Shown here piece by piece: positions 3,291 to 35,137 of a DNA stretch of 35,137 nt. Numbering within the stretch: position 1 is the stretch's first letter; each line of letters begins with the position of its first letter. The stretch is from IMG/VR virus record IMGVR_UViG_3300032462_000032, positions 1 through 35,137 of that record; one strand, given 5' to 3'. Below the pieces are notes generated by a model, which did no database searches, had not been told where the DNA came from, and was given only the letters and a program-made list of their open reading frames with translations. Both the position numbers and the translations under genes were made by a program. This DNA is from a virus.

Positions 3291-3972
3291 AATGAAAGTA
3301 ATCCCTTACTTCAGAAGTTATTTTTTCTCGAAACACTGGAGGGTCAAAAGAACACGATTGAGCTAAATCATTGATGAATGGTTGGGCATATGGAGACATC
3401 ATAACATAATAGATTGAAGCCTTGCCAGAAACAATCCAAAGTTTAAAAAATCCATTTTCCATGAATCCACGAATTTTTTCAGATGATGGTTCTCCATCAC
3501 ATTTTTCGAACAAAAACTTTTTCGTTCTATCAATTTCTCGAATGATCTTCGGATCTGTGGTCGATACAGATGGTGGTGGTGCGACACAAGATTTTTCGCT
3601 CATTTTTTGAGTGTACCATCTTTCCCAAACCTTCCATCTAATCCACGCTTTGTCTCCGCAAATGGCATTGGGAGAAACATGAGATTTGTTGATCTTCAAT
3701 ATCGCCAAATTAGCCTTAACATAATTAACGTACTGCTCTCCTGTTAACAAACCTCTTGTTTCTCGACGGAGTTTCCAGCATTGGCGAAACAAATCTGACT
3801 TTCGAGGGTCTCCACGTTTTGGAATTGTATTTCTTCTGAACCCTTGTCCATCAATTTCTTCTGTTCCTTCGAACAATCTTAAGAATTCTTGCTCATAAAG
3901 AACAGCCAATTTAAAGGCTTCGGTCTCTGGAGAAGTCATATTCCATTCAAAAATAGCGTCGTATCTGTGCAT
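3244..3972 (-). CDS. hypothetical protein, start inside a repeat-like hairpin
   Basis: About 242 aa with no recognised family. The open frame can be extended to 4002, but those extra codons (MLMLFSRIAL) are simply the translation of a CRISPR-repeat-like element, so I place the start at the ATG at 3972 (MHRYDAIFEW). It has AGGA eight bases upstream, also inside the element. A further ATG at 3939 (MTSPETEAF) is possible. The middle is basic and Trp-rich (IRWKVWERWY), followed by a Pro/Ser linker and an acidic-basic C-terminal half. Because ribosome site and start codon lie in the loop and 3' arm of a hairpin, its translation may be regulated by RNA folding. Confidence 0.55.
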   Translation of the reverse strand: MHRYDAIFEWNMTSPETEAFKLAVLYEQEFLRLFEGTEEIDGQGFRRNTIPKRGDPRKSDLFRQCWKLRRETRGLLTGEQYVNYVKANLAILKINKSHVSPNAICGDKAWIRWKVWERWYTQKMSEKSCVAPPPSVSTTDPKIIREIDRTKKFLFEKCDGEPSSEKIRGFMENGFFKLWIVSGKASIYYVMMSPYAQPFINDLAQSCSFDPPVFREKITSEVRDYFHYEFNHEFDRIRLPSN

Positions 3973-4002
3973 TAATGCAATCCTGCTGAATAACATCAGC
4001 AC
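3967..4002 (-). repeat. solo degenerate CRISPR-repeat-like hairpin (element 1)
   Basis: On the minus strand this reads GTGCTGATGTTATTC, then AGCAGGATTG, then CATTAATGCAC: 36 nt, the same length and ends as the array repeat, and identical to it over the first nine bases. GTGC pairs with GCAC and TGATG with CATTA, so the hairpin is kept although the sequence has drifted. It covers the ribosome site and the likely start codon of the downstream gene. Confidence 0.75.
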
Positions 4003-4091
4003 AATTAAAGAATTTTCATATTTATGCTTGTGAGCATGTACTGTATCTGTTTTAAAAGTTTATAACAATGGATCTTTTTACAGAAAAGGTC

Positions 4092-4120
4092 TTGCTTTCT
4101 TTAAGTTAACTTGATAAGAT
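4092..4120 (+). promoter_or_regulatory. sigma70-like promoter for the structured RNA
   Basis: TTGCTT, 17 bp, TAAGAT. The predicted start is near 4127. No coding region follows for about 560 bp, so it most likely drives the non-coding RNA. The same TAAGAT -10 is found before cas12 and the polymerase gene. Confidence 0.55.
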
Positions 4121-4126
4121 TAGAGT

Positions 4127-4540
4127 TGAAGCTACTTTCAAATTAACAGGTCGGGTATTTCAGGTCAGATGGTCACTTGAAATCCGGCGAAAAACCTTGA
4201 CAGCGGGTAGGTCTTACCGCAACCGGACGAGTTTAGGGAACTCAGCGTCTTGTGTCAAGAATCTAGGTAATCCAGATCACTAAACCCGGCGATGCCATGA
4301 ATGCTCGTTCTGCTTTTTAAAGCGGCTGCCGGGGCTACGAGCAGGTCATCTGGTTAGGAGATTCGTGATTATCACTTGGGAATCACCCAAGTGTGAAGCA
4401 CAACTACCATCAATTAAAACAACTTCAAGTTGTATCATAATAGACGCAGTGAGAGTCATTTTCACTGGGTGTAGAGAATGCACGCACTTTGTAAATCGCC
4501 TTATTACTTAAGGAAATATAAAGTGATTTTATTTTTTATA
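4127..4540 (+). ncRNA. large structured non-coding RNA, family unknown
   Basis: About 410 nt between a promoter and a terminator-like hairpin, with no sensible open frame and a higher GC content than its surroundings. Many complementary arms are visible: CTTGACA (about 4194) with TGTCAAG (about 4255), enclosing GCGGGTA/TACCGC and GAGTT/AACTC hairpins; ATCT/AGAT near 4262-4279; TGCTCGT with ACGAGCA (about 4302 and 4337), enclosing CTGCTTT/AAAGCGG; CCCGGC with GCCGGG, which crosses the previous stem and suggests a pseudoknot; CACTTGGG/CCCAAGTG at 4374-4394; ACAACT/AGTTGT near 4420. I looked for RNase P, tmRNA, group I intron and cobalamin riboswitch signatures and found none. Large phage RNAs such as GOLLD or ROOL, or a long tracr-type RNA, remain possible. 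Confidence 0.55.
4485..4538 (+). terminator. terminator-like hairpin ending the RNA unit
   Basis: CACTTT (4485-4490) pairs with AAAGTG (4520-4525), with an inner CTT/AAG, followed directly by ATTTTATTTTTTAT. The stem is weak but the T-run is long. Confidence 0.4.
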
Positions 4541-4581
4541 TCTATTATGATCACAACCATGGCATCCCTTATGGACTGAAG

Positions 4582-4618
4582 GTTCTTATGCCATTCAACA
4601 GGATCAGGATCAAGGCAC
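4582..4618 (+). repeat. solo degenerate CRISPR-repeat-like sequence (element 2)
   Basis: GTTCTTATGCC, ATTCAACAGG, ATCAGG, ATCAAGGCAC: 37 nt that aligns to the array repeat with four substitutions plus a changed 5-6 nt segment. The last ten bases are identical to the repeat. The upstream ATGGCAT (about 4559) is complementary to ATGCCAT within the element, with CCTT/AAGG inside, so the element can pair with its own flank like a repeat:anti-repeat. It lies 74 bp before the polymerase ATG, on the same strand as the array. Confidence 0.7.
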
Positions 4619-4691
4619 GACTGAGATAAGTTACAAAGTATTTAATTGATTCAGGGTAGTTTCGGAATCTCTGATCTGATAAGATTTGAGT

Positions 4692-6008
4692 ATGAATCTT
4701 GAAGAGACATCAATTTTACTGGCTGAACTACTGGAATCCAATGAAGTGGTTTTTGTGAAAACAGAACCAGAAACATTGGATTTTACAGACAGTATTTTAT
4801 TTAAGATTATTGTTTGTGGTAAAAACTCACGAGTGGAGTTAGATATTTCATCAGGCAACACAGCTTCTGTTATGGGTCTTCTCGACGCCACAATTTTTAA
4901 TAAAGAGTTTGTGCCTAGAGTGTTTTTTTGGAACTTCAAATCTTTAGCAAGCTTTTGCAAATATCATACTACAAAATTTGTAACACCAAAGAACAATATT
5001 CTTGATCTAAAAGTCATTGAAGCTTTTTTGGACATTCAAAAAAATGTCCCTGATAATTTTGTAGAAGCATCTAATCGAATTAACATCGTTTTTCAAAACA
5101 ATGATTGGAAAGATATATACAAATCCATTCACATTCCGTTGTCCTATCGAGTTTTACCAACAATCGAAACGACAGGATTATTAAACAGCGAGACCAGACG
5201 CACCGAGCATCCCTACTATGAAATTGAGGGACAAAGGAACGGAAGGTTAAGTTGTTCTAAGAAATTTTCACGATGCTACCTGCCTCACAACTTGGGACCA
5301 GATGTTAAAAAAGTTATGAAAACAAAGGGTTACGGCCTTCGTTTCGCAACTGCTGACTTTCGGTTCTGCGAAGTGGTTGTTTTGCAATGGTTATCAGGTG
5401 ACAATAAACTCAAAGAAATTTTAGATTCAGGAGAAGACTTACATTGCAAGATCTATGAAGTTGTTACTGGCTTGCCATGCGACACAGAGATTAAACGCAA
5501 AATGTCAAAGAAGATGTTTCTACCTGTCGTATATGGACTTGGACCTGTATCTCTCGCAGATATGTTAGGAGTTCCAGAGTCAGCGGCAGTTAGCGTAATA
5601 AAAAATATAAATTCTATTTTCTCGACAGCTATTAATTGGGTTAAAGAGAAACAAAGAATTGCATGCGACACAGGAACAGTTAAAGATCATTTTGGAAGAC
5701 CAAGAAAATACGAATCCAATAAAGCCTACTTAGCTCGCAATTTTGTTGTACAGTCTGTGTCCGCCACAGTATGTCAAGAGAAATTGATTGAACTTTGGCG
5801 AGCATTAAACAACACTGGAGCACAATTAGCTTTCAGCATACATGACGGTTACGGCGTAATTTGTTCTACACAAATAGCAAAAAACACCTACAGAATAATG
5901 AAAGATACATTAGAGGCAGAATCACGGCTTTGTCCCGGCTTGAAGATGAGCGTCGAGATCAAATTTGGAGTTAGACTCGATGATATGAGGGTGTTATGGA
6001 ACAACTAG
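4692..6008 (+). CDS. polA: short family A DNA polymerase without exonuclease domain
   Basis: A 438-aa protein whose C-terminal two thirds is a family A polymerase domain. Motif A is A-T-A-D-F-R-F-C-E-V with catalytic D near residue 222. The O-helix (motif B) is R-K-M-S-K-K-M-F-L-P-V-V-Y-G: the R, K and Y-G of Pol I are kept, but the position of Pol I F762 is Leu. Motif C is S-I-H-D-G-Y (D near 385), with Gly in place of the usual Glu. The N-terminal 150 residues do not show 3'-5' exonuclease motifs, and the usual 600-900 aa length is not reached. The DEDD exonuclease at 26308 could proofread in trans. ATG 4692 is chosen over a TTG at 4686. No ribosome site is visible, and a TAAGAT -10 at 4680-4685 would place the transcript start at the ATG, so a leaderless message is possible. 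Confidence 0.85.
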   Translation: MNLEETSILLAELLESNEVVFVKTEPETLDFTDSILFKIIVCGKNSRVELDISSGNTASVMGLLDATIFNKEFVPRVFFWNFKSLASFCKYHTTKFVTPKNNILDLKVIEAFLDIQKNVPDNFVEASNRINIVFQNNDWKDIYKSIHIPLSYRVLPTIETTGLLNSETRRTEHPYYEIEGQRNGRLSCSKKFSRCYLPHNLGPDVKKVMKTKGYGLRFATADFRFCEVVVLQWLSGDNKLKEILDSGEDLHCKIYEVVTGLPCDTEIKRKMSKKMFLPVVYGLGPVSLADMLGVPESAAVSVIKNINSIFSTAINWVKEKQRIACDTGTVKDHFGRPRKYESNKAYLARNFVVQSVSATVCQEKLIELWRALNNTGAQLAFSIHDGYGVICSTQIAKNTYRIMKDTLEAESRLCPGLKMSVEIKFGVRLDDMRVLWNN

Positions 6009-6045
6009 GAATTTTCGAAAAAAGTGGTCAAATTAAAGGAGGCAC

Positions 6046-6621
6046 ATGTTAGGAACGCTTGAAAATATTATGAATTTATTTCCGATTACAGATTCGGAAT
6101 ATGAGGTTTTGGATAAAAAGTTCGGAAAATTGGCGCATTATGCAGCATGGGAACTCAAAAGAAAAAATGCCAATAACGCCAATGTCAATGACCCAGATGA
6201 CGATGTTCAAGAGCTAAGAATTGCCTTAGTCAGGGCGGGCAGCTATTACAAAAGGCAGACATATATCGAAAGCTGTTTTGATGTTCTTAACAAATACATC
6301 AAAGATAAGTTCATTATGAAAGTTTTTATCGAGCTGACAATTTTGTGGGAAAATCGTCGTCGTCATGGAGCTAATCGTCAGAAATTTGGTCTGCATCAGC
6401 AAATCATTCTTGATCAATTAGTTAATAAGTACGTTCCAGAGAAAGAGCGACCAAAGCGAGATAAAGTCCTCAATTTGGATCTAAAATTTACAACTTATTG
6501 CAAACAAATCATTTGGAATGCCCAAAAGTCTCTAGGCAAAAAAATCACGAGAGAAAAGTCTTGGAGAACTGGATTGGTTTCGCTTTCGGACTATGATTAT
6601 TTAGCCAATAATGCTATATAA
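6046..6621 (+). CDS. putative phage sigma factor-like protein
   Basis: A 191-aa basic, helical protein. The segment from about residue 20 to 95 (KLAHYAAWELKRKNANN, then D-P-D-D-D-V-Q-E-L-R-I-A-L-V-R-A, then YYKRQTYIESCFDVLNKYI) has the layout of sigma70 region 2: a helical core with an acidic D-D-D-V-Q-E-L turn and an aromatic/basic helix. A basic C-terminal part follows (KRDKVLNLDLKFTTYCKQIIWN). Similar small proteins in T4-type phages are gp55-like late sigma factors. It has one of the best ribosome sites in the window (AAAGGAGGCAC-ATG), so high expression is expected. Region 4 is not evident, as in gp55. Another helical DNA-binding protein remains possible. Confidence 0.4.
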   Translation: MLGTLENIMNLFPITDSEYEVLDKKFGKLAHYAAWELKRKNANNANVNDPDDDVQELRIALVRAGSYYKRQTYIESCFDVLNKYIKDKFIMKVFIELTILWENRRRHGANRQKFGLHQQIILDQLVNKYVPEKERPKRDKVLNLDLKFTTYCKQIIWNAQKSLGKKITREKSWRTGLVSLSDYDYLANNAI

Positions 6622-6676
6622 TGCTATGTTTATATAAAACAAGAAGAATTATTTCGATTGTATATTGCAGAAAATA

Positions 6677-6695
6677 GTGCAGATCGCTGGGCATT
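6677..6695 (+). repeat. partial copy of the second hairpin element family
   Basis: GTGCAGATCGCTGGGCATT, identical over 19 nt to the start of the element at 6735, 58 bp further on. Here the 3' half is missing and replaced by an ATTACTA/TAGTAAT hairpin with a T-rich loop (6696-6715), which could act as a weak terminator after the sigma-like gene. Confidence 0.7.
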
Positions 6696-6734
6696 TATTA
6701 CTATTTTTTTAGTAATTTTAAACTATAACAAACA

Positions 6735-6770
6735 GTGCAGATCGCTGGGCATTCCCGGCTTTTATGGCAC
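6735..6770 (+). repeat. second-family 36-nt hairpin element before a gene start
   Basis: GTGCAGATCGCTGGG-CATT-CCCGGCTTTTATGGCAC: 36 nt, the same length as the CRISPR repeat and with the same GTGC...GGCAC ends, but a different centre. GCTGGG pairs with CCCGGC and the outer GTGC with GCAC. The ribosome site AGGGGG and the ATG (6783) follow directly, so it is the 5' leader hairpin of the next gene. A related copy at 16474 keeps the same pairing with a compensating base (CCCAGC). Confidence 0.75.
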
Positions 6771-6782
6771 ATAGGGGGACTG

Positions 6783-7073: not shown

Positions 7074-7091
7074 TTAATCGTCGGAGTTTTC

Positions 7092-8099: not shown

Positions 8100-9333
8100 A
8101 GATAAAGCCATTCGTATCGGCGGCAACAAAACCATTTATGTGCCGGGCTTGGAAGAAAACAAGTCTCTGGTCGGAAAGAAGGTTGTTGTAGGAAATGCAA
8201 AGCCGTTGAGTAAACTGAAGGTTGCCGGGATCTGTAATTGGGGCGATCAATGTGGAATCGCAACTTATAGCGAGCAACTAATTCCAGAACTTCGCAAACA
8301 TGTCAAAGAAGTCAAGATATTTGCAGAAACTATGGAAGGTGCTCATGATGATGTTGAACGCTGTTGGAAACGTGGGCAGAGTTGCATTGATTTAGCTCAA
8401 CAGATCATTGATTATGGTCCAGACATAATATTCATCCAACATGAATTTGGAATTTTTCCAAAAGCCACTCATTTCCTTAAATTACTTGAAATGTTTAATA
8501 ACATTCCTTATGTGATTACTTTGCATTCGGTTTATGAGCATCTTGATAAAACAATTTGCACTTCTTATATCAAAAACATCATTACTCATAATCCAAATGG
8601 AAAAATATGTTTGGAGAGGCTGGGTCATCGTAATGAAGTTTTTGTTTTGCCGCATGGTTGCAACTTATATGAAAACACACAGCAATTGTGGAATATATTT
8701 CAAAACGAACGCACGATTATTCAATTTGGGTTTGGTTTTGATTATAAAGGTCTTGATTGTGCAATAGAGGCTGTAAGTATATTGAAGAACAGATCAGAAG
8801 AGTTTAAGGATATATTTTATTGTTTCTTGTGCAGCGAGAGCAATCACACACGTTCAATTCAGGCTCGATATTACAATGAGATTAGAGATCTAGTTGAAAA
8901 GAAAGGGTTACAAGATAACGTAGTTGTGTTGCGTGGCTATTTGTCTGAGCAGCACATGCAGAACTTCTTGAGGACTGCTAAGTTGGCGGTCTTCCCATAC
9001 AAGAACGATCCGAAGAATACGGTTTATGGGGCATCTGGTGCGATTCGCAAGGCGATGTCAAATGGCATTCCCGTGATCGCTAGTGACTGTCATTTGTTTG
9101 ATGATCTCGATGGAGTTGTTCCACGACCAAGCAATCCAGAAGAATTAGCTGATGAGATCGCTAAAGTATTCACATCTGGAGATTACAGGAACTCATTGTT
9201 ACAGAAATCAAAAAACTTTGTTACAGAAAACTCATGGCAAAATGTTGGGTTAAAATATGCAGAAATCCTTGCTCAGTTAACACAGGATAATTCTGATGTG
9301 ATTCGAGTTGACAACATTGATTGTGTTCTTTAA
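8053..9333 (+). CDS. GT4-type glycosyltransferase
   Basis: 426 aa, GT-B fold. Residues 1-55 are an extra N-terminal beta-rich extension. The catalytic part starts at K-V-A-G-I-C-N-W-G-D-Q-C-G-I-A-T-Y, the G-I-A-x-Y donor-domain loop of group 1 glycosyltransferases. D-I-I-F-I-Q-H-E-F-G-I-F (about residue 115) and Y-V-I-T-L-H-S follow. The C-terminal domain has R-T-I-I-Q-F-G-F-G-F-D-Y-K-G, then V-V-V-L-R-G-Y-L-S, and F-P-Y-K-N..G-A-S-G-A-I-R-K-A-M-S-N-G-I-P-V-I-A-S-D, the typical E/S-G-x-x-x-A-x-x-x-G-x-P-V nucleotide-sugar site. It overlaps the pyruvyl transferase by 47 bp, so an operon is likely. The cas12 promoter lies across its last codons. Confidence 0.8.
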   Translation: MYVSINQAGMIQAVSKDKAIRIGGNKTIYVPGLEENKSLVGKKVVVGNAKPLSKLKVAGICNWGDQCGIATYSEQLIPELRKHVKEVKIFAETMEGAHDDVERCWKRGQSCIDLAQQIIDYGPDIIFIQHEFGIFPKATHFLKLLEMFNNIPYVITLHSVYEHLDKTICTSYIKNIITHNPNGKICLERLGHRNEVFVLPHGCNLYENTQQLWNIFQNERTIIQFGFGFDYKGLDCAIEAVSILKNRSEEFKDIFYCFLCSESNHTRSIQARYYNEIRDLVEKKGLQDNVVVLRGYLSEQHMQNFLRTAKLAVFPYKNDPKNTVYGASGAIRKAMSNGIPVIASDCHLFDDLDGVVPRPSNPEELADEIAKVFTSGDYRNSLLQKSKNFVTENSWQNVGLKYAEILAQLTQDNSDVIRVDNIDCVL

Positions 9334-9336
9334 GAT
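9308..9336 (+). promoter_or_regulatory. sigma70-like promoter of cas12
   Basis: TTGACA (9308-9313), 17 bp, TAAGAT (9331-9336): a consensus -35 and a good -10 with ideal spacing. The predicted start near 9343 gives a 29-nt leader. It overlaps the end of the glycosyltransferase gene. Confidence 0.65.
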
Positions 9337-9371
9337 TGTTTGATTACAATCAACAACTCAAAGGGACATCA

Positions 9372-12137
9372 ATGGCTACAAGATCTTTTATTCGAACCGG
9401 AAACCTTAAGGCAAAGAATACTGCTGAAGAAGTCATGCAGTGGTATGCAGATTTACAGTCGGACTACCGTTCTTTTTTGAATTTATTTTTTGGGTGGATG
9501 GCAATTGGCTATGGCACAAATGCCGAAGATGAAGTGTTTTACACATCTAAAGAAGAATCCGAAAGATTGAGATCATTAACAATCGGTGACGCCAAAAAAG
9601 AACAGTTGGCAGTTAGTTTTATTGAACTTCTTCTTAAAGGAGGTGAAAATGCTTCTTCTTGTTACAATGTTTTCTATAGAAATTACAAGTCTCTGGGGAA
9701 GGCTAAATTAACACAAAAAAAGAATGATTTTTTGTCAGCCTTGCCTTTGCTCGATGAAAACAAGATTAAAGAATACTTCAAGACCGATGAACAACTTTCT
9801 CAAATTTGCATTGAAGAATGGTTGGAATATGGAGTTAAAAATTTACCACTGCCTGAAATTTGGGCGGAAGTGTCTCCCAGATTGGCATCAATTGAAAGAT
9901 CGCTAGGAGTGGATCTCAGATTGGCATTTGGATTGTCTTGCATTCGTTCAAGAGATTGTAATTATTGTCGCATTCTCATAGAGATGGTTGGCAGGGATTT
10001 GAGGTCCATTTTCGAGAAGTACAACAACCATTTGTTGGAAACAGAAAAGATTAAACTGTCGATGAATGATAAACAAGGGCCTGTTTATGATTCTATTTGT
10101 TGTTTTGCAGCAGAATTAGAATCGAAAAATTCAGGTCTCACAAAGTATGTTTTGACAAAAGGCATAGATCATGTAAAAAAAGGAACTGGAGAAAAAACAG
10201 ATATCAGACTTGCTGTTAAAGAACTTAAGAAGAATAAATACAGGATTCTGATTGAATCATCATATTCAGAAATTATGTCAGCTTATTCTTGCTGGAGGAC
10301 AAAGAAACAGTTAGAAAAAAGAAAATTGTATCCTTGTTTCGATCCAAATAGAAATGACTATAAAGTTCCTGTAGGGCAGGGATCTCTAGGAAACTTCACT
10401 GTGTCAGTTGAAGATTCTGGCGATGTGCTTATTGAAATCGTCGGTGTCGGAGTCATAAGGTGTGCTGCATCTTGTTATTTCAGCGGTATTGTTTTTGATG
10501 AAATTAGGAATAAAAATGGTCGTACTGGTTATTCTTTGAATTTCTGTCATAAGTCGATAAGTAAAGGCAAGAAGGCCGTAAAAGCAGCATCTCATACAGG
10601 AGATAAAATTTCTGGGGTTCTTAAAGAGATTGGTTTGCGTAATACAGATTCTGGGTTTTTTGTATCACTCCCTTATTCGATTCATCACGACGAGAAAAAC
10701 TTCAAAATTGCAGAATTTTTTATGTCGGCTTGTCCAAAGAAAGAAAATGTAGAGAATCTTCCTGACAAAATAGTCGTCGGAGCTATTGATCTGAATGTGT
10801 CAAATCCTGTCGCTGCCGTTAAAGCAGTTGTTTATCGTGACGACAAAAGCGGACAGTTAAACGCTTTAGATTATGGTTCAGGGAATCTCATTAAAAAACC
10901 ATTCATGTTGGTGGCAAATGGTCCAAGAATCAAAAATTTGATAGAAATCAGAGACGATGCCAGACGTGTTATTGGAGCAATCAGAGAATTTAAAGTTTCT
11001 AACGCAGTTAAAGAACATGTGGGTGAAGACACTCGTGATTTTTTGATTTTATGTGGAGACACAAAATCTTCTTCAACTCGATATTTAATTCAGTCATGGG
11101 TTAAAAAAATCAATTCTCGCTTGAGAAAAATTAAGTTTGAGATGCGTTCTGGAGGATATCGTGATTGTGCAGATAATATTCGTTTGATTGAGGCTATGGA
11201 TCAGTGTGCTTCAATGGCTGAATCTTATAATAGAATTCATTTGAAATCGGGAGAAAAACTGGTAAAAGTCGCAAAGTTTGATAAAAGCAGAGCAAATTTC
11301 AGAAATTTTGTTTTGAGACAACTTGCGTCAAAGATTGCCAATGAAATGAAAGATTGTAATGTTGTGTTTGGAGAAGATCTTGATTTCATATTTGATTCAG
11401 ACAAAAACAACAATGCTTTGTTGCGTTTGTTTTCGGCGGCGACATTATTAAAATACATTATAGAAGCTCTTGAAAAAATTGGAGTTGGTTTTGTAAAAGT
11501 CGCCAAGAATGGCACTTCACAAAGCGATCCTGTTACTTCCAATCCCGGATGGCGTGATGACAAAAACAAATCTAGGTTGTATGTTGTCAGAGACAAACAA
11601 TTGGGTTGGATTGATTCAGATCTGGCTGCCACGATGAATATTTTGATTCAAGGTTTAAACCATTCTGTTTGTCCATACAAATTCTATGTCAAGGAATATG
11701 AAAATAAGCCGAATTCCACTCAGGATAGCATCAATGCGATTAAGAAACCTGAAGAAGCCATTGGCAAGCGTATTAAGAGATTTTTCAATTTGAAGTACGG
11801 TTCTTCTGTCCCTAAATTTGTTTCGGATGATAGAGGTCGAGTTACATTTGCAAAAAAAATTGATAGCACTCAAACTCGATTGATTAACCAGTTTGTTTAT
11901 GCACATTCCTCTTGTATTGTTACTTGCGAACTGCACAACGAGATGGTAAACAAAATCAAGCAATTAGCCGTGGAGAAGCCGAATTGCCAAGAATTTGACG
12001 TAACATGTGATCCAGATGGAAGATACAACAATTTTGCCTTACCAGAGGTGCATGATTCTTCAAAAGATGTTGGTGCTAAAGCACTTACGACAAAAGACGT
12101 TGACTTTAAAACGATTTTGAAAGATCATACGGCTTAG
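9372..12137 (+). CDS. cas12: type V CRISPR effector nuclease, Cas12 family, subtype unassigned
   Basis: 921 aa from the ATG with AAGGGA seven bases upstream. It is followed 66 bp later by a CRISPR array. RuvC-I is V-V-G-A-I-D-L-N (D about 473), RuvC-II is V-V-F-G-E-D-L-D (E about 668) and RuvC-III is W-I-D-S-D-L-A-A-T-M-N (D about 750). The segment N-G-T-S-Q-S-D-P-V-T before RuvC-III recalls the TS-x-x-DP of Cas12a and Cas12i, and the region after it (N-I-L..Y-K-F-Y-V-K-E-Y) recalls the Cas12b tail. There is no C-x-x-C zinc ribbon. The first 470 residues should form the recognition lobe and PI/wedge domains; the start MATRSF resembles some Cas12b. It is expected to process or use crRNA and cut dsDNA. 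No Cas1, Cas2 or Cas4 is nearby. Phage-restricted Cas12 groups such as Cas-lambda are candidates, but I cannot assign one. Confidence 0.85.
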   Translation: MATRSFIRTGNLKAKNTAEEVMQWYADLQSDYRSFLNLFFGWMAIGYGTNAEDEVFYTSKEESERLRSLTIGDAKKEQLAVSFIELLLKGGENASSCYNVFYRNYKSLGKAKLTQKKNDFLSALPLLDENKIKEYFKTDEQLSQICIEEWLEYGVKNLPLPEIWAEVSPRLASIERSLGVDLRLAFGLSCIRSRDCNYCRILIEMVGRDLRSIFEKYNNHLLETEKIKLSMNDKQGPVYDSICCFAAELESKNSGLTKYVLTKGIDHVKKGTGEKTDIRLAVKELKKNKYRILIESSYSEIMSAYSCWRTKKQLEKRKLYPCFDPNRNDYKVPVGQGSLGNFTVSVEDSGDVLIEIVGVGVIRCAASCYFSGIVFDEIRNKNGRTGYSLNFCHKSISKGKKAVKAASHTGDKISGVLKEIGLRNTDSGFFVSLPYSIHHDEKNFKIAEFFMSACPKKENVENLPDKIVVGAIDLNVSNPVAAVKAVVYRDDKSGQLNALDYGSGNLIKKPFMLVANGPRIKNLIEIRDDARRVIGAIREFKVSNAVKEHVGEDTRDFLILCGDTKSSSTRYLIQSWVKKINSRLRKIKFEMRSGGYRDCADNIRLIEAMDQCASMAESYNRIHLKSGEKLVKVAKFDKSRANFRNFVLRQLASKIANEMKDCNVVFGEDLDFIFDSDKNNNALLRLFSAATLLKYIIEALEKIGVGFVKVAKNGTSQSDPVTSNPGWRDDKNKSRLYVVRDKQLGWIDSDLAATMNILIQGLNHSVCPYKFYVKEYENKPNSTQDSINAIKKPEEAIGKRIKRFFNLKYGSSVPKFVSDDRGRVTFAKKIDSTQTRLINQFVYAHSSCIVTCELHNEMVNKIKQLAVEKPNCQEFDVTCDPDGRYNNFALPEVHDSSKDVGAKALTTKDVDFKTILKDHTA

Positions 12138-12202: not shown

Positions 12203-14071
12203 GTGCTGATGCTATTCAATAGGATAGAATCAAGGCACGGCTCTGAAGGAAAGATAAGTTTTGCTGTCTTAGAGGTGCTGATGCTATTCAATAGGATAGA
12301 ATCAAGGCACAGCAAGCGTCTCGTAAAGAAAACGATCGTCAAGATGTGCTGATGCTATTCAATAGGATAGAATCAAGGCACTCACAAACTTAACTGCTGC
12401 TGTCTGTGTGACCAGCAGTGCTGATGCTATTCAATAGGATAGAATCAAGGCACAAAGGACATACGCTTTGAGTTTTGGGGGGTATACGTGCTGATGCTAT
12501 TCAATAGGATAGAATCAAGGCACTGGGGGGTTAATTTCGGACGCACCAGCAGAAAAAGTGCTGATGCTATTCAATAGGATAGAATCAAGGCACTAGAAAC
12601 TGGAGATTTATCAGCAGGTGGATACACGTGCTGATGCTATTCAATAGGATAGAATCAAGGCACTATCCTGATGAGATCAGAGAACTTGAGCGACAAGCGT
12701 GCTGATGCTATTCAATAGGATAGAATCAAGGCACCAACAGGTTTGCGTGGATGTGCGGAAACGGAATTGTGTGCTGATGCTATTCAATAGGATAGAATCA
12801 AGGCACAGCAGATATACACACTGGAAAGGTCAGACACTAAAGTGCTGATGCTATTCAATAGGATAGAATCAAGGCACTCACAGCCAACTGCCTACTTTGA
12901 GCAATTGATCACGTGCTGATGCTATTCAATAGGATAGAATCAAGGCACTCTTGAGTTGGTCAAAAACACAAATAGAACCAACGGTGCTGATGCTATTCAA
13001 TAGGATAGAATCAAGGCACTCCTCTCAACCTCTCTCTTCTGGAATACACACACCAGTGCTGATGCTATTCAATAGGATAGAATCAAGGCACCTATCACCC
13101 TGACGGCGGCAATGAGGTGCTGATGCTATTCAATAGGATAGAATCAAGGCACATTTGACTCCGCTTGTTGAGTGTCGGTTAGTAACAGTGCTGATGCTAT
13201 TCAATAGGATAGAATCAAGGCACTTGTCAGATAAGATTTGAGTCTTCTTCCCTCACAAGTGCTGATGCTATTCAATGGGATATAATCAAGGCACGGAAGT
13301 CACTACAGGTCGGGGAACTCACTTCTATTTTGTGCTGATGCTATTCAATAGGATAGAATCAAGGCACTAGACACAATGACACGACAAGAACAGTTAAATT
13401 CATGTGCTGATGCTATTCAATAGGATAGAATCAAGGCACGTTACTCACTGGACAAGATTCGAATCTTGAAATCAGGTGCTGATGCTATTCAATAGGATAG
13501 AATTAAGGCACTTTGATTGCCGACAAACGGTGAAAAATTGCCCCTCGGTGCTGATGCTATTCAATAGGATAGAATCAAGGCACGTGTCCACTGAAGACTC
13601 GGGTGTGCTGATGCTATTCAATAGGATAGAATCAAGGCACCAGTTAGTGATGTCAAAAAAGGGTTTGGTGCTGATGCTATTCAATAGGATAGAATCAAGG
13701 CACAAAGCAACCGACGACAGCGGTCAAATTGCTAGGATAGAATCAAGGCACTTGAAACCTTTGATCTCACAAAGGTCTTTGATCCTCGTGCTGATGCTAT
13801 TCAATAGGATAGAATTAAGGCACCAGCAAGAGACCAGTAAGTCATCAAGTGTCAAAAGTGCTGATGCTATTCAATAGGATAGAATCAAGGCACGAATCAG
13901 ACTTACTGTGCTGATGCTATTCAATAGGATAGAATCAAGGCACGCAAAGTACGTTGGCAGAAGAGCCACAAAAAGAACAAGTGCTGATGCTATTCAATAG
14001 GATAGAATCAAGGCACTAAAAGACCGATTTTTCTTGTGCTGATGCTATTCAATAGGATAGAATCAAGGCAC
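12203..14071 (+). CRISPR. CRISPR array, 28 repeats (one truncated), 27 spacers
   Basis: The 36-bp repeat reads GTGCTGATGCTATTC, AATAGGATAG, AATCAAGGCAC. It is an imperfect palindrome: GTGC pairs with GCAC, and GAT-G-CTAT with ATAG-A-ATC around the loop TCAATAGG. Repeats start at 12203, 12275, 12346, 12418, 12488, 12558, 12628, 12699, 12771, 12842, 12913, 12984, 13056, 13117, 13188, 13259, 13332, 13404, 13476, 13548, 13605, 13668, about 13733 (only the last 19 bases), 13788, 13858, 13908, 13981 and 14036. The first 15 are identical; variants occur at 13259 (two changes), 13476 and 13788 (C to T), and the truncated copy. Spacers are mostly 34-37 bp, but six full gaps in the second half, and one before, are short (25, 21, 27, 29, 14, 19 bp). 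Spacers are non-repetitive and look like ordinary protospacer DNA. Confidence 0.98.
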
Positions 14072-15760: not shown

Positions 15761-16303
15761 ATGTCAAGAAAAGAGAAGTTAGAGTTTGCAGGAGTTATTG
15801 TTGAAATTGATCCAGAAAACCTTCGTTTCAATGAAAACAATCTGTCTCAATATATTCAGACTGAAGCTGGTTACTACGACAATTTCGGAGCTTATCTCTC
15901 ATTAGCTGAGAAGAATTTACAGAACTTCGAATTACGCCATGAAAAACTGTCGGCTGATCGATTTATTGAAGCAAAGGAGTCTGGCGGCAGTGACAAGTTA
16001 GCTGAAGCAAAGGCAAAGGCTGATCCAGATGTTGTGGCTTTTAAAGAGAAAGTTAATGATGCAAAATATGCTGTCAATAGATTGAAGCAACATTTGCGTG
16101 CTTGGGACAAGAATCACGACAACGCTCAGAGTTTGGGGCACATGCAACGCAAGATGATGGATAAGCTCAATAGTGACATCATGGGTGGCAAAGGTTACAT
16201 GCACAGCGGAGTTAATGATGATTTGATTTCAGAAACAATCAAGTCTTATAGTGAAGATGAAAAAGGCGGATTCGCAGATGACTTACGTTCTGCGATGTAC
16301 TGA
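15761..16303 (+). CDS. UvsY-like recombination mediator (tentative)
   Basis: A 180-aa, highly charged, helical protein. The sequence N-N-L-S-Q-Y..E-A-G-Y-Y-D-N-F-G-A-Y-L (residues 26-47), a charged spacer, then A-D-P-D-V-V-A-F-K-E-K-V-N-D-A-K-Y-A-V-N-R-L (about 87-108) and H-M-Q-R-K-M-M (about 127-133) has the same layout as T4 UvsY, where helices flank an 'S/ADxDV' turn and end in an 'I-Q-D-M' helix. UvsY loads UvsX on gp32-coated ssDNA, and genes resembling both partners lie downstream. The ribosome site is AAAGG. The last codon and stop (TAC TGA) are inside a solo CRISPR repeat. The assignment rests on pattern and context, not on a computed alignment. Confidence 0.45.
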   Translation: MSRKEKLEFAGVIVEIDPENLRFNENNLSQYIQTEAGYYDNFGAYLSLAEKNLQNFELRHEKLSADRFIEAKESGGSDKLAEAKAKADPDVVAFKEKVNDAKYAVNRLKQHLRAWDKNHDNAQSLGHMQRKMMDKLNSDIMGGKGYMHSGVNDDLISETIKSYSEDEKGGFADDLRSAMY

Positions 16304-16332
16304 TGCTATTCAATAGGATAGAATCAAGGCAC
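16297..16332 (+). repeat. solo CRISPR repeat, 35 of 36 identical to the array (element 3)
   Basis: GTACTGATGCTATTC, AATAGGATAG, AATCAAGGCAC. Only the third base differs from the array repeat. It lies 2.2 kb after the array in the same orientation, and contains the stop codon of the UvsY-like gene. The next bases (TTTCTTAAATTATG) are T-rich, so the hairpin could end transcription, or could be a repeat with a single downstream guide. Confidence 0.9.
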
Positions 16333-16473: not shown

Positions 16474-16508
16474 GTGCAAATCGCTGGGAATTCCCAGCTT
16501 TTATGCAC
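16474..16508 (+). repeat. second-family hairpin element, copy 2
   Basis: GTGCAAATCGCTGGG-AATT-CCCAGCTTTTATGCAC: 35 nt, 29 or so bases in common with the element at 6735. The core stem here is a perfect GCTGGG/CCCAGC; in the other copy it is GCTGGG/CCCGGC with one G-T pair. The ends GTGC/GCAC are kept. The pairing is therefore conserved between copies with a compensating change. Confidence 0.75.
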
Positions 16509-18341: not shown

Positions 18342-18435
18342 ATGAATAGTTGTCACTATAGTATGAAAGATGGGGGTTATGTGTCTGATTGACAAGAATT
18401 AGACACAACTGCGGCTAGACATGATGTCATTACTT

Positions 18436-18471
18436 GTGCCTATGCTATTCGTAACGATAGTATCAAGGCAC
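18436..18471 (+). repeat. solo degenerate CRISPR repeat (element 4)
   Basis: GTGCCTATGCTATTC, GTAACGATAG, TATCAAGGCAC: 36 nt, 29 identical to the array repeat. The changes keep or improve pairing: GTGCC/GGCAC is 5 bp and ATGCTAT/ATAGTAT is a 7-bp stem with one G-T pair, where the array repeat has a G-A mismatch. Confidence 0.85.
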
Positions 18472-18496
18472 TCTCGAAAGTGCCTTCATCTAACTG

Positions 18497-18534
18497 AGAG
18501 TGTGACAGAAGAAAACTTCTGTCACACTCTTTTT
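18497..18534 (+). terminator. strong intrinsic terminator
   Basis: AGAGTGTGACAGAAG, loop AAAA, CTTCTGTCACACTCT: 15 perfect base pairs followed by TTTT. It ends four bases before the ATG of the next gene. Confidence 0.85.
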
Positions 18535-18538
18535 GTTT

Positions 18539-19156
18539 ATGGACTCTGAATTAATTCGCAAACAACTTGAGTTAGGCTTAATATCTCCAGATATTTTGTT
18601 GTCTGGGACCAAGCTTATAGACGAATCTTCAAGAAATGCTGGAGATTACAAGGATGGCAACTACTTGCCGTTTTATTACCATCTTGGAAAACAGCTTAAA
18701 TCAAAAAATGTTTATCAGATTGGAGCCAAACTTGGACTTGTAGGAGCATGTTTCCTTAAAAGTTGTAAGACAGTTGAAAGTTGGCTGGCGATGAACAACG
18801 ACAAAACATTTACTGTTCAAATAATTACAGCCAATTTGAAGTTAAACACGAAATATTTTAATGATATTATGCCCGGTCCTATTTCTTGTATATCATTTAC
18901 GGATGATATATTGGAAACTGAGATTCCTAATGCAAAGAAATTTTCTGGATTCGATCTTGGGTTTCTTACAGAAAACTTTGGAGAAGAAAAATATCTGAAA
19001 CATCTGAATTTCTTGTGGAAATTTTTGGTTCCAGAAGGATTATTAGTCGCAGACTATATAACAGAACATGATGTTTTTCACGAGTTTTGCAGGGTAAAAA
19101 ACCGTGAACCAATAATTTTTAACACTCGTTATGGTGTAGGCATTATCCAGAAATAA
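18539..19156 (+). CDS. SAM-dependent methyltransferase-like protein
   Basis: 205 aa. N-Y-L-P-F-Y-Y-H-L-G-K-Q-L, then V-Y-Q-I-G-A-K-L-G-L-V-G-A-C-F-L (about residues 60-75) looks like a class I methyltransferase motif I (E/Q-x-G-x-x-x-G-x-x-x). F-D-L-G-F-L (about 137) and the helix F-L-W-K-F-L-V-P-E-G-L-L-V-A-D-Y (about 160-177) match motifs IV and the strand-5 'L-x-P-G-G' region. The acidic SAM-binding residue after strand 2 is not obvious, so it may be inactive or use another ligand. The ATG follows a terminator by four bases with no ribosome site, so how it is translated is unclear; the frame also allows a TTG at 18533. Confidence 0.45.
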   Translation: MDSELIRKQLELGLISPDILLSGTKLIDESSRNAGDYKDGNYLPFYYHLGKQLKSKNVYQIGAKLGLVGACFLKSCKTVESWLAMNNDKTFTVQIITANLKLNTKYFNDIMPGPISCISFTDDILETEIPNAKKFSGFDLGFLTENFGEEKYLKHLNFLWKFLVPEGLLVADYITEHDVFHEFCRVKNREPIIFNTRYGVGIIQK

Positions 19157-26307: not shown

Positions 26308-26895
26308 ATGTTTGGTCCATCGCTAGTAAAAGCAAAAGCAAAAGAATGGAAGTTTGTCAGCATTGATATCGAGACACTAGGTCTCGATGAAAATTATTGC
26401 GACATTATTGAATTTGGAGCAGTATTAGATGACTTGGACACTCCGCTGGAAGATCTTCCAAGATATCATTGTTATTTAACCAATGACAAAAACAGATATC
26501 AAGGAGAAATTGCCGCTATGGCTATGCACGGCACTATCTTTAAGAGAATTGCTAGCCGTGAAAAAGGTTACAACTATATTCCGACCGATATTCTTGATGA
26601 AAATTTTTCTTCATGGCTTAAAGAACATGGATTGGATAAAATTGTTATCATCGGAAAGAACTTTGCAAATTTTGACCTGAAATTTTTACAGAAGATTGGG
26701 TTTGGAAATTCTACAAATTTTCATCGGAGAATTCTTGATGTTGGTAGCATGTTCTACGATTCTGTCAAAGACATTGTTCCTCCTAATCTTGAAGAATGCT
26801 TAAGAAGAGCGAGAGTTGAAAAAACAGTAGAACACACTGCTGTTGAAGATGCACTTGATGTCTTGCGTTGTGTTCGTTATAAACAATTTCATTAA
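26308..26895 (+). CDS. DnaQ-like 3'-5' exonuclease (DEDDh)
   Basis: 195 aa. Exo I is F-V-S-I-D-I-E-T-L-G (D20, E22), Exo II is G-K-N-F-A-N-F-D-L-K-F-L (D about 119), and Exo III is E-H-T-A-V-E-D-A (H and D about 175-180). The full DEDDh set is present in a protein of the minimal size. Such enzymes proofread or trim DNA or RNA 3' ends. Since the phage polymerase at 4692 has no exonuclease domain, this may be its separate proofreading subunit; T4 DexA-like DNA degradation is the alternative. It lies just before the helicase gene and is probably cotranscribed with it. Confidence 0.8.
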   Translation: MFGPSLVKAKAKEWKFVSIDIETLGLDENYCDIIEFGAVLDDLDTPLEDLPRYHCYLTNDKNRYQGEIAAMAMHGTIFKRIASREKGYNYIPTDILDENFSSWLKEHGLDKIVIIGKNFANFDLKFLQKIGFGNSTNFHRRILDVGSMFYDSVKDIVPPNLEECLRRARVEKTVEHTAVEDALDVLRCVRYKQFH

Positions 26896-30477: not shown

Positions 30478-30544
30478 ATTGATGTTGACTCTCTTCTTAA
30501 AAAATGGTGAAATACAGGAACACTCAATAAATCCTGAATCACAC

Positions 30545-30550: not shown

Positions 30551-30589
30551 ACAGTTGCTTAAACTATTAATTCAAACAAGGAAGAAAAA

Positions 30590-30886: not shown

Positions 30887-30903
30887 ACTTAAGGAGGAAA
30901 TAT

Positions 30904-31584: not shown

Positions 31585-31586
31585 CA

Positions 31587-32177: not shown

Positions 32178-32191
32178 ACAAGGAGATAAAG

Positions 32192-32656
32192 TTGAAAGTT
32201 TTGTATTCAGATGAAGGTCATTTCGATGGTTGTGGCAAGGCGATTTTTTTAGCTGGTCCAACACCAAGAAAATCTGATGTTGTTTCATGGCGACCTAAAG
32301 CGATAGAGATTCTAAAAGAAGCTGGATTTGATGGAACCGTCTTAATTCCAGAAAGGAAAGATTGGTCTGTGCAATTTGATTATACAGATCAAGTTCAATG
32401 GGAACGTATAGGACTGGAATTAGCGTCAACAATTCTATTTTGGGTTCCTCGGCATATGGAAGATATGCCTGCTTTGACCACCAACATAGAATTTGGATAT
32501 TGGGTTGCTAAGTCTCCAGAACGTGTTCTTTATGGACGACCAAATGATGCTCCAAATAATAGATATTTGGATTGGTTAATTTGTCAAGAAAATAAAGACG
32601 CCGTTGTTATTTATAATGATCTGAAGTCTCTACTTTTAGTTGCTTCTAACCGATAA
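32192..32656 (+). CDS. nucleoside 2-deoxyribosyltransferase-like protein
   Basis: 154 aa, starting with TTG (M-K-V-L-Y-S-D-E-G), chosen because AGGAG lies six bases upstream; the open frame extends further back but overlaps the previous gene. I-F-L-A-G-P-T-P-R (about residues 18-26), W-R-P-K-A-I-E-I-L, V-L-I-P-E-R, Q-W-E-R-I-G-L-E-L-A, I-L-F-W-V-P-R and L-T-T-N-I-E-F-G-Y-W (Glu as likely nucleophile) match the nucleoside 2-deoxyribosyltransferase-like family. These enzymes cleave or exchange the base of (deoxy)nucleosides. Its place next to dNMP kinase fits nucleotide salvage. Confidence 0.7.
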   Translation: MKVLYSDEGHFDGCGKAIFLAGPTPRKSDVVSWRPKAIEILKEAGFDGTVLIPERKDWSVQFDYTDQVQWERIGLELASTILFWVPRHMEDMPALTTNIEFGYWVAKSPERVLYGRPNDAPNNRYLDWLICQENKDAVVIYNDLKSLLLVASNR

Positions 32657-32676
32657 ATTTTTAAGGATTTATATAG

Positions 32677-33277
32677 ATGATAAGATGGATTACAGCCGAT
32701 TGGCATTTGGGCGAAGATCGTATGGCAATCATGCAAAGACCATTCAAAGATCAGCGTGAGATGATCGAAGTTTTGGTTGAACGACATAATGCAATTGTTG
32801 GACCGGATGATTTGGTCTACGTGGTAGGAGATGTCTGCTACCAGAAGTATCCAGAATTTCTTGAAGAAGTTGATCGGTTCAATGGCAAAAAAGATTGTCT
32901 TGCGTGGAAATCATGATCGTGTTTTTACAGACGATCAGTTGTTGAAGCATTTTCAGGAAGTTATTCCCGAAGGTAAAGGTCTGGAACTCGACGTGGCTGG
33001 GATTCAGTGTAATTTAACACATTATCCAAGTCGTGCAGTTCATGGTATGTTCAATCTAGTAGGGCATATCCATGGGGCATGGAAGTATCAATTGAATTCG
33101 GTGAACGTTGGTGTAGATGCCAACCATTTTGTGCCACATAATTTGGATGAAGCGATTCCTTTTTTCTTAAAAGCGATCTCAGAATTCTATGATGATGATG
33201 TGTGGGCTGCTTACAATGCAGCGAACCAGCCATATTTGGGCATCCGAGGGAAAAAAGGCGTTTATTTTAATGAATAG
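32677..33277 (+). pseudogene. metallophosphoesterase interrupted by a one-base frameshift
   Basis: Two overlapping frames together make one calcineurin-like phosphoesterase. The first (32677-32916) has A-D-W-H-L-G-E-D and V-G-D-V-C-Y; the second (open 32831-33277) has I-V-L-R-G-N-H-D-R, H-Y-P-S and V-G-H-I-H-G. The break is at a run of six A (32887-32892): with five A the protein reads N-G-K-K-I-V-L-R-G-N-H-D without a gap. Either a sequence or assembly error, a real inactivating insertion, or +1 slippage at AAA AAA G. Family members hydrolyse phosphodiester or phosphomonoester bonds with two metals. All metal-binding motifs are intact, so the enzyme would be normal if the frame is restored. 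Confidence 0.8.
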
Positions 33278-33349
33278 GACATCAGGGAACTTATCAGGAT
33301 GAGATTCCCAATTTGATGCGTCAATATAGACCTGCCTTAAATTATTTTT

Positions 33350-33501
33350 GATGCCTTTCAGCCAAGATCAACTATCGTGGAAATCGAGCATTTTACTCAG
33401 TGGACAAAGACGAGATCACCGTGCCAAACAAACGTAAGTTTGTGTCTATGGGCAACTTTTACGAAACAGTGTTTCATGAACTGGTCCATCACACCAGATA
33501 A
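33350..33501 (+). pseudogene. fragment of an ArdC-like zinc metallopeptidase domain
   Basis: In the frame ending at the TAA at 33499-33501 the DNA reads I-N-Y-R-G-N-R-A-F-Y-S-V-D-K-D-E-I-T-V-P, then F-V-S-M-G-N-F-Y-E-T-V-F-H-E-L-V-H-H-T-R-stop. This is the ArdC (antirestriction) pattern: AfYsP-x-x-D-x-I-x-x-P, a linker, f-Y-x-T-x-x-HE-L-x-H-x-T. It stops directly after HELVHHT, whereas intact proteins continue for dozens of residues. Upstream the frame has a stop at 33349 and no start. So only about 50 codons remain. The remnant suggests a lost anti-restriction gene. Confidence 0.65.
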
Positions 33502-33528
33502 ACCATGAAGAAGCCGGAAGAAGACATC

Positions 33529-33915
33529 ATGAGCGGATTAATAAAACCAAAAGACATGAATTTTGTAAGTAAACCATGGGGTTGGGAACTTTGGATTTGC
33601 AATGGCGAAAAATATTGTGGAAAGAAAATTTTCATAAAACAAGGACATTGGTTGTCGTATCATTCGCATGATTTAAAGGACGAGGTTTTGTTTACAGAGA
33701 CTGGGCACGCTTGGTTGACATATGGTTCTAATGAGCAAGATTTCTCTTGTGTAGAAATGAAGCCGGGATTTGCTTTTCATGTGGAACCCGGATTGAAACA
33801 TCAAATTCAAGCAATCGAAGATATTGTAATTTTTGAATTCTCAACACAGCATTTTGATTCAGATAGTTATAGAACAACAACAGAATTGGTTGTTGACCAT
33901 GAGGTTGACTCTTGA
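33529..33915 (+). CDS. cupin protein, mannose-6-phosphate isomerase type II-like
   Basis: 128 aa from ATG 33529 (GGAAGA upstream); an ATG at 33505 would add eight residues without ribosome site. V-S-K-P-W-G-W-E-L-W-I, Y-C-G-K-K-I-F-I-K-Q-G, L-S-Y-H-S-H, D-E-V-L-F-T-E-T-G-H-A-W and P-G-L-K-H-Q-I match a single cupin barrel as in the isomerase domain of GMP/M6P isomerases: the three His and a Glu are present. It may supply or modify a sugar nucleotide. The stop overlaps the TTG start of the methyltransferase, so they are coupled. Confidence 0.7.
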   Translation: MSGLIKPKDMNFVSKPWGWELWICNGEKYCGKKIFIKQGHWLSYHSHDLKDEVLFTETGHAWLTYGSNEQDFSCVEMKPGFAFHVEPGLKHQIQAIEDIVIFEFSTQHFDSDSYRTTTELVVDHEVDS

Positions 33916-34736
33916 TCAAAATAAAGGACTGCAAACATGGTCCTATGTTGTACCTATCCAATGATAAATGGACTGGGAGATCATTTGATCTTTATGGAGA
34001 ATGCTACGAAAAGCAAATTGATTTAATGCTCAGATTCATCAATGCTGGCGATGTTGTAATTGACGCTGGAGCCAATATTGGCGACATGACAATTCCTTTG
34101 GCTAAAAAAGCTGGCATTGTTATTGCGTTTGAGCCTCAAGAATTTTTGTTTTACACAATGTGCGGCAATATTGCTTCTAACAATCTTTACAATGTCAGAG
34201 CACATTGCAAGGCTGTTGGAGATGTGTCCGGCAAGAAGTTATTTTGTCCATCGCCATTGCTTAAAAACAAAGATGGGATTTCTTTTTATGATGATCCTAT
34301 GCAACACTATGGTGGCGTATATCTGACAGAAGAGCCAAGATGTGAATCCGATTTTCAAGTAGAAACGATTTCTATAGATGATCTAAATTTGGATAGATGC
34401 GACTTTATTAAATTAGACATCGAAGGAGATGAATTCAAGGCGTTGATTGGATCAAAAAACACAATTGAGAAATTCAAGCCAATTATGTTCATTGAATCAA
34501 TGCCATGGAGCATGCCTAATCTCGCAGAAGCGATAAGAAAATTAGGATACGTATACAGAACAGTCAGAGCTAAATTTTACAATCCTGACAATTTCTTTAA
34601 TAATCCAATTGATGAACTTAGAGAAAAAGATAATCCTGATTTGCCAATGGTGTCTAGCGACATTATTTGTTATCACAAAGATCATCAGGAAAAAATGGAC
34701 TTGATGTATTTCAAAGCGATGAAAGAGATTATGTGA
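33912..34736 (+). CDS. FkbM-family methyltransferase
   Basis: 274 aa, starting with TTG at 33912. The start is supported by GAGG seven bases upstream and by the TTGA overlap with the preceding stop. Motif I is V-V-I-D-A-G-A-N-I-G-D (about residues 48-58), then V-I-A-F-E-P-Q-E, and the FkbM signature C-D-F-I-K-L-D-I-E-G-D-E (about 159-170), F-K-P-I-M-F-I-E-S. These SAM-dependent O-methyltransferases often act on sugars or polyketides. With the cupin next to it and three sugar-transfer enzymes elsewhere, a glycan-modification role is likely. Confidence 0.8.
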   Translation: MIKIKDCKHGPMLYLSNDKWTGRSFDLYGECYEKQIDLMLRFINAGDVVIDAGANIGDMTIPLAKKAGIVIAFEPQEFLFYTMCGNIASNNLYNVRAHCKAVGDVSGKKLFCPSPLLKNKDGISFYDDPMQHYGGVYLTEEPRCESDFQVETISIDDLNLDRCDFIKLDIEGDEFKALIGSKNTIEKFKPIMFIESMPWSMPNLAEAIRKLGYVYRTVRAKFYNPDNFFNNPIDELREKDNPDLPMVSSDIICYHKDHQEKMDLMYFKAMKEIM

Positions 34737-34772
34737 AATGTGTAATTTATTATCCTGTGCCTAAATACAGGT

Positions 34773-35137
34773 ATGCAAACGATTGACAATCTTTACAGCA
34801 TAGATTATCTCTATCCAAGAATATTAATTCTTGAATTGATCGAAAAAACCAAGGGCTGTGCCGTGGTTTGGAATAAGATCCGTCCAGCGGTCTATAAGAC
34901 TCATTGGAAAGTTGAAGATAGACACTATGACGTGTCTCTTACTTACCTAAAAACCACATTTAAGATAGATTTCGCAAGAAACGGAAGATCTGTTTATAAC
35001 GTGGATTCAAATGCAGTTGCAGAAATTGATGATTTGTATCAAATCGTAGATCTTTATCTTGAACAAGATGATTCGTTCTTGCCTGCTTTGCAAAGTCAAC
35101 TCAATTGTAGACGCTATCATAGGATAAAATCAAAAGG
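34773..35137 (+). CDS. partial hypothetical protein
   Basis: 121 codons, open to the right edge, starting ATG after ACAGGT. N-terminus MQTIDNLYSIDYLYPRI, then a mixed alpha/beta domain (AVVWNKIRPAVYKTHWKV, YDVSLTYLKTTFKIDF). The last codons fall in a degenerate CRISPR-repeat-like sequence (RRYHRIKSK), so the true end of the protein may be just beyond the window. No family recognised. Confidence 0.55.
   Translation, partial: MQTIDNLYSIDYLYPRILILELIEKTKGCAVVWNKIRPAVYKTHWKVEDRHYDVSLTYLKTTFKIDFARNGRSVYNVDSNAVAEIDDLYQIVDLYLEQDDSFLPALQSQLNCRRYHRIKSK
35107..35137 (+). repeat. degenerate CRISPR-repeat-like sequence at the right edge (element 5)
   Basis: TGTAGACGCTATC, ATAGGATAAAATC, AAAAGG. It follows the repeat through GCTAT, ATAGGATA, AATCAA, with a few changes and one deletion, and is cut by the window edge. 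The pairing is weak. It lies in the coding frame of the partial gene, as element 3 lies at the end of the UvsY-like gene. Confidence 0.5.

Follow-up and report, generated by a model that had tools for sequence, protein, structure and literature searches.

Single copies of a CRISPR repeat dispersed outside the array of a predicted type V-H phage locus

The locus and its solitary repeats

The 35,137-nucleotide (nt) stretch of the virus record IMGVR_UViG_3300032462_000032 (hereafter the window) was analysed computationally and, judged from its sequence, holds a type V-H clustered regularly interspaced short palindromic repeats (CRISPR)-Cas locus in a huge phage; the elements considered here are single copies of its repeat that lie outside the array (solos). 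The effector gene, cas12h (9321 to 12137, plus strand), encodes 938 amino acids and was assigned to type V-H by a PADLOC profile match to Cas12h (1508 bits) and a Protein Data Bank match to Cas12h1 (8y9l; E 8e-191, 42% identity over the aligned segment). Adjoining it on the same strand is a CRISPR array (12203 to 14071) with 27 full-length copies of a 36-nt stem-loop repeat and one truncated repeat (about 13732 to 13751), and several further variant repeats lie inside the array. Short spacers (14, 19, 21, 25, 27, and 28 nt, against 34 to 37 nt) occur at 13092 to 14035 and, like the truncated repeat, fall mostly in the far half of the array. PADLOC found neither cas1 nor cas2 among 30 window proteins, some window open reading frames (ORFs) being outside that scan. 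The identity of the effector to Cas12h1, the long stem-loop of the 36-nt repeat, and this lack of cas1 and cas2 liken the locus to known Cas12h (type V-H) systems, from which it differs in that the repeat is also found as single copies elsewhere in the genome.

Four solos are real: 3967 (3967 to 4002, minus strand; 29/36 identical to the repeat), 4582 (4582 to 4618, plus; 37 nt, with one inserted base), 16297 (16297 to 16332, plus; 35/36), and 18436 (18436 to 18471, plus; 29/36). Gapped alignment of the window outside the array with the repeat gave scores of 34 for 16297, 24 for 4582, and 22 each for 3967 and 18436, against a best of 14 and a mean best of 10.8 in 60 first-order simulations of the non-array window. 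A covariance model recovered all 27 array repeats and the four solos in the window (E = 4e-12, 1.1e-11, 2.4e-14, and 4.6e-12 for 3967, 4582, 16297, and 18436, respectively), and nothing at 35107; its seven training rows were three array repeat variants and the solos themselves, which hence match partly by construction, and the simulations are the fairer test. The original prediction had listed a fifth solo at 35107, which was rejected as chance level (score 10, shuffles folding as well in 96 of 200, no covariance hit up to E = 5). Its statement that the GTGC...GCAC ends are kept also fails in two cases, 16297 beginning GTAC and 4582 GTTC. No second repeat lies within 100 bases of any solo, in keeping with the SRUFinder definition of a solitary repeat unit.

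Placement of the solos is ordered around genes, as had been proposed, in a window whose coding share outside the array is about 87 to 89%. Solo 16297 overlaps the stop codon of the gene at 15761 to 16303, and the gene that ends at 3244 starts within 3967 (ATG at 3996 or 3972); 4582 is flanked by a long RNA-like region and by polA, and 18436 is part of a small RNA closed by a strong terminator, both of them between genes. Each is in sense with its adjoining gene or RNA, which for 4582 and 18436 is the downstream gene, the upstream gene being opposite. The small RNA (18363 to 18535, plus) is a conserved structured RNA with the core AGATGG...CTGCGGCTA...CATCT, present in relatives without Cas12h, and 18436 occupies one of its hairpins, which is variable. 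The unit is transcript-like and ends in a 16-pair terminator. Its core (AGATGG, CTGCGGCTA, CATC, then the terminator) lies directly upstream of the gene at 18539, and the same gene follows in five of six relatives, G011 being the exception; the T-run of the terminator nearly reaches the start codon of that gene. About 500 nt of noncoding sequence precede polA (4060 to 4570), with blocks 80 to 85% identical in the relative G007 and 76% in G012, and this could possibly be a large structured RNA of a new kind. At the gathering threshold nothing in Rfam matched these RNA regions over the window: neither 18363 to 18535 nor 4060 to 4570 was assigned a family, and 3900 to 4720 gave chance-level matches only.

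Site states in relatives and a copy on a second contig

Five other IMG/VR records (G001 to G005) are at least 99.95% identical to the window over shared stretches and belong to the same phage species. G001 to G004 carry Cas12h; G005 stops at the last bases of cas12h, before the first repeat of the array. The solos are identical wherever covered, G005 falling short of 3967 and 4582 and solo 4582 of G004 coinciding with a piece boundary, both sides of which match fully. In the 28 kb upstream of the window, within the 64.7-kb contig G003, neither the alignment scan nor the covariance model found a further repeat copy. Six relatives, records of other species in the clade (G006, G007, G008, G009, G011, and G012; DnaB 64 to 90% identical), were identified by a scan with the DnaB helicase and then with a DnaB alignment, a set that leaves out 73 of 80 loci, with DnaB identity of at most 35%. 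A profile search that matched G002 and G003 as positive controls found Cas12h in none of the six. The polA-DnaB interval, where Cas12h is sited, is covered in G007, G008, G011, and G012, while the records of G006 and G009 start only at DnaB or close to it.

The array and every solo were absent from the records of all six relatives, in which the best alignment scores with the repeat were 12, at chance level. A covariance scan of 35 stretches covering 800 kb (the six relatives, three pieces of G003, another contig, G010, and 300 kb of the huge phage LR756511.1) returned two significant hits, 18436 in G003 and an exact copy in G010, the other five having E of at least 1.2. More widely, Cas12h was found among viral contigs only in four contigs of the same species, and neither Cas12h nor the array had a match in the phages collection; the repeat matched nothing in the phages and plasmids collections. 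Four further stretches (L064 to L067) emerged from a looser scan of viral contigs, none of which continues as the repeat. A search of genome_contigs with weak Cas12h patterns found no relative and says little. The 28 spacers matched, among the own and related genomes, only themselves and stretches of up to 18 nt. Far from the Cas12h locus, at 26308 to 26895, a protein matches the PADLOC CAS-associated DEDDh exonuclease profile (E 1e-13) and is probably an ordinary phage exonuclease.

Genes around the solos are colinear with those of the relatives, and the sites were aligned mainly with G007 and, where covered, with G006. Of the solo at 4582, 27 nt are an insertion, placed between GTTCTT and GCA, both of which G007 has as well. 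The place of 16297 is taken in G006, G007, G008, and G012 by an ORF of about 126 to 135 codons, which sits directly after the same gene in G006 and G007, with a terminator-like hairpin past the stop codon in G007; the junctions, GT on the left and CAC on the right, are common with the relatives, and the stop region of the lost ORF can still be aligned. At 3967 the gene start itself was replaced, G007 reading MENEQVRYDAIFEW where the ATG of the window lies inside the solo. The slot of 18436 holds a short, different hairpin in G006 and G007; in G008, another slot of this small RNA is taken by a distinct 36-nt GTGC...GCAC hairpin (L048, 14885 to 14920, minus). Set against these relatives, the solos are insertions or replacements, and their absence is thus the ancestral state.

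These comparisons bear on the claims with which the analysis began. That the solos are not random array leftovers was supported, such an origin being unlikely: their flanks carry no recognisable spacer, the surrounding genes are colinear, and the sites appear as insertions or replacements. Elements shared with relatives that lack cas12 and the array were to be regarded as ordinary phage palindromes; they occur in none of the six, and are not ordinary palindromes of the clade. Lack of conservation in any relative, taken beforehand as a sign of debris, is indeed what is seen and points to a recent origin, although debris and a young function would look alike in this respect.

A scan of viral contigs identified one more exact copy of the repeat (36/36), alone between tRNA-Phe and tRNA-Ser of the 36-kb contig G010 and in the same direction as these tRNAs. 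No Cas12h was found in the 36 kb. LR756511.1 (595 kb, of which 300 kb were compared) shows synteny with the window in 19 of 38 ORFs and with G010 in 17 of 34. The GC content of G010 (37.7 to 37.8%, vs. 37.9%) and its tetranucleotides are close to those of the window phage; the tetranucleotide margins over other relatives are small, with one window half nearest to G006, and constitute weak evidence. We initially favoured G010 as a rival phage carrying a decoy, a view weakened by the synteny with LR756511.1, the GC content, and the tetranucleotides; it may instead be a further part of the huge phage itself, or come from a sister. By eye, the copy (L063, 8330 to 8405) is followed by a stretch resembling the 3' half of a tRNA, with a CGA-like anticodon loop and a T arm and without an ARAGORN call, as though a tRNA had lost its first half to the repeat.

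Fold, possible masking, and a second hairpin family

Mature crRNA (CRISPR RNA) of Cas12h1 begins at the first base of the repeat and keeps the whole 36 nt as one long stem-loop, as described in section 7 of PMC11830025. By this yardstick, only 18436 is predicted to be intact. For the repeat alone, the basal stem had a pairing probability of 0.99 in 18436 (-14.4 kcal/mol) and a mean of 0.95 in the 27 array repeats, against 0.33 in 3967 and 0.01 in each of 4582 and 16297, the stem of the last being broken by G3A. The hairpin pairing ascribed beforehand to all solos thus stands for 18436, whose crRNA-like hairpin is kept, and falls for the other three, in which the basal stem is lost. Because only 1% of 20,000 trials with seven random changes to the repeat gave a fold energy as good as that of 18436, its hairpin was probably kept by selection. 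Downstream of 18436, AGTGCCTT can pair with the 3' end of the solo and is a predicted masking anti-repeat. In the account of Cas13 systems given in PMC13187072, leader-repeat hairpins hide the repeat from the effector and block extraneous crRNAs. The likeness is that a flanking anti-repeat can hide a repeat, as would be possible at 18436; there, however, the hairpin belongs to an array leader of type VI, and here the solo lies in a separate small RNA.

Searched against the own and related genomes, the 40 nt downstream of each solo matched only self, orthologous sites, and stretches of 12 to 17 nt, and the downstream sequence at 16297 and 18436 is partly conserved in relatives without Cas12h. 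As a group, the flanks are not spacer-like (12 tests, p 0.03 to 0.97, uncorrected). Self-regulators of the CreR or scaRNA type consist of a degenerate repeat followed by a guide to a gene or promoter; with short seeds and host targets outside the scope of the search, no such guide-like match was found in the own and related genomes.

A second family of hairpins is present in the same genome. It comprises a 36-nt hairpin at 6735 to 6770 (plus; GTGC...GGCAC, with the fold plan of the Cas12h repeat), a partial copy of the first 19 nt at 6677 to 6695 (plus), a 35-nt copy at 16474 to 16508 (plus), and a degraded copy upstream of the window (G003:22172; L014, 7172). The sequence frame is GTGCARATCGCTGGG...CCCRGCTTTTATGGCAC, which is also terminator-like; the ends, length, and fold plan are common with the repeat, and little of the inner sequence is. 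The copy at 16474 is an insertion at an alignable site, absent from the aligned G007 site, and its flanks abut in G006. Hairpins of the strict form, scanned on both strands (a plus-only scan missed the G010 copy), numbered 3 in the 63 kb of the phage outside the array, 18436 being the third, against a mean of 0.135 and a maximum of 2 in 200 simulated genomes of equal size; there were 4 in 414 kb of the six relatives, 1 in G010 (the repeat copy), and 0 in 300 kb of LR756511.1. By sequence, the second family was absent from the six relatives save for a chance-level score of 13 in G011, had no match in the phages collection, and its exact pattern was found among viral contigs only in five contigs of this species.

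Origin and possible roles

The solos have repeat-only boundaries, are absent from six relatives, appear at aligned sites as insertions or replacements, lie in sense orientation, and are present in near-identical contigs. The best-supported reading, at about even odds, is that these four are single repeats that were copied without spacers from the type V-H array, or came in with it, and were placed in noncoding borders and RNA hairpins once the phage had split from its Cas12h-less relatives. Under such a scheme, repeats would leave the array or arrive with it one at a time and enter borders and RNA hairpins, the copying being driven by short homologies and hairpin-mediated template switching, not by Cas1-Cas2. 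A sense-strand repeat would then be a substrate of Cas12h unless its basal stem were lost. Three copies may have decayed and been absorbed as start-codon, stop-codon, and border sequence. The fourth, 18436, may have become a stem of the small RNA, open to masking by the downstream anti-repeat as an alternative pairing, and may still bind Cas12h as a spacer-less decoy.

Several observations weigh against this account. The route of bare-repeat copying is inferred, and the junction homologies amount to only 2 to 3 nt; the end bases of 18436 and 4582 coincide with ancestral ones, which makes the exact inserted stretch uncertain. Loss of the stem in three of four solos is a small sample and no test of selection, and the predicted values depend on context: with 100 nt on either side, the array repeats themselves average 0.41 and many lose the predicted stem. 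In G010, the exact copy still has the full crRNA fold, contrary to a general decay, and the downstream flank of 18436 had the lowest p for spacer likeness (0.03, uncorrected for the 12 tests). The 36-nt hairpin of G008 is left unexplained, and the second family disperses without an array of its own in 65 kb, which leaves room for copies that did not come from the array.

The main live alternative, to which we attach distinctly less weight, is that 18436 and the G010 copy would serve as decoys or in regulation, whereby intact copies would be transcribed as spacer-less, RNA anti-CRISPR-like decoys that bind and restrain Cas12h, whether that of the phage itself, late in infection, or that of a competing phage. 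Solitary repeat units are known in viruses, and some inhibit Cas proteins, according to the relevant parts of PMC10651486. The transcript-like unit of 18436 with its 16-pair terminator and preserved crRNA fold, the exact copy in the tRNA cluster of G010, and a second family with the same ends, length, and fold are consistent with such a use, but the basal stem is gone in three of the four solos, the anti-repeat could mask 18436, and G010 resembles the same clade and is no clear rival phage. That the solos are natural single crRNAs, as the original prediction suggested, or crRNA-like regulators guiding Cas12h to own or host genes, would follow from each full repeat being a Cas12h processing site with the next ~26 nt as guide (PMC11830025, in the section on Cas12h). 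This role appears unlikely, because no guide-like match was found in the own and related genomes, because the sequence downstream of 16297 and 18436 is partly conserved without Cas12h, and because the fold is lost in three solos.

Equally improbable in our estimate is the reverse order of events, also raised at the outset, in which a dispersed 36-nt palindrome family came first and the array was built from it. The second family (6735, 16474, the partial 6677, and the degraded copy in G003), with the same ends, 35 to 36 nt, the same fold, and no array, keeps this idea alive, as does the G008 hairpin in the same small RNA. It is disfavoured by the ancestral absence of the solos, all four of which are in derived states: neither family occurs by sequence in the six relatives, and the array repeats are homogeneous, while three solos have diverged. 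Moreover, Cas12h1 elsewhere also has a 36-nt stem-loop in the description of PMC11830025, which makes the repeat plan older than the phage. A wider proposal, rather unlikely as we see it, is that Cas12h-type hairpins are small mobile elements of RNA borders: two families of 35 to 36 nt with GTGC...GCAC ends, one of them the array repeat, would hop singly and sense-wise into transcript ends and RNA hairpins, bringing the transcripts within reach of Cas12h for binding or cutting; such a pool would also supply the CRISPR repeats. Least credible of all is debris of a longer or second former array. The truncated and variant repeats and the short spacers of the array speak for it, but the solos lie 2 to 10 kb away among colinear genes, three on the plus and one on the minus strand, with no spacer-like flanks as a group.

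REP sequences, Rickettsia palindromic elements, and the small dispersed repeats of cyanobacteria are short hairpins that have settled at gene borders and within structured RNAs. The solos resemble these bacterial dispersed palindromes in both respects, and differ in that the unit has the length and boundaries of a CRISPR repeat. Phages are known to carry solitary CRISPR repeats chiefly as mimics of the repeats of their hosts (PMC10651486, PMC11656645). Compared with the solitary repeat units and RNA anti-CRISPRs (Racr) of PMC10651486, the likeness lies in single repeat copies at mostly noncoding phage sites, with an identity to the repeat of at least 97% in two cases, 16297 and the G010 copy. 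With the phage's own repeat as reference in place of the published repeat list, these two also reach 90% identity and coverage, and 18436, 3967, and 4582 fall below. Unlike those units, the copies described here match the array of the very phage that carries them; of the four in the window, three are under the published 90% cut-off, most have lost the fold, and two overlap gene ends. In open-licence PMC literature, we found no paper with this repeat, nor, by title or abstract start, one on solos in a type V-H phage.

In the present case, the dispersed single copies are those of a phage's own repeat, polarised as new insertions by its relatives. Such copies make the movement and origin of CRISPR repeats without Cas1-Cas2 testable, and the solos provide a natural test of the effect of a stray repeat on a Cas12 effector whose guide carries the whole repeat.

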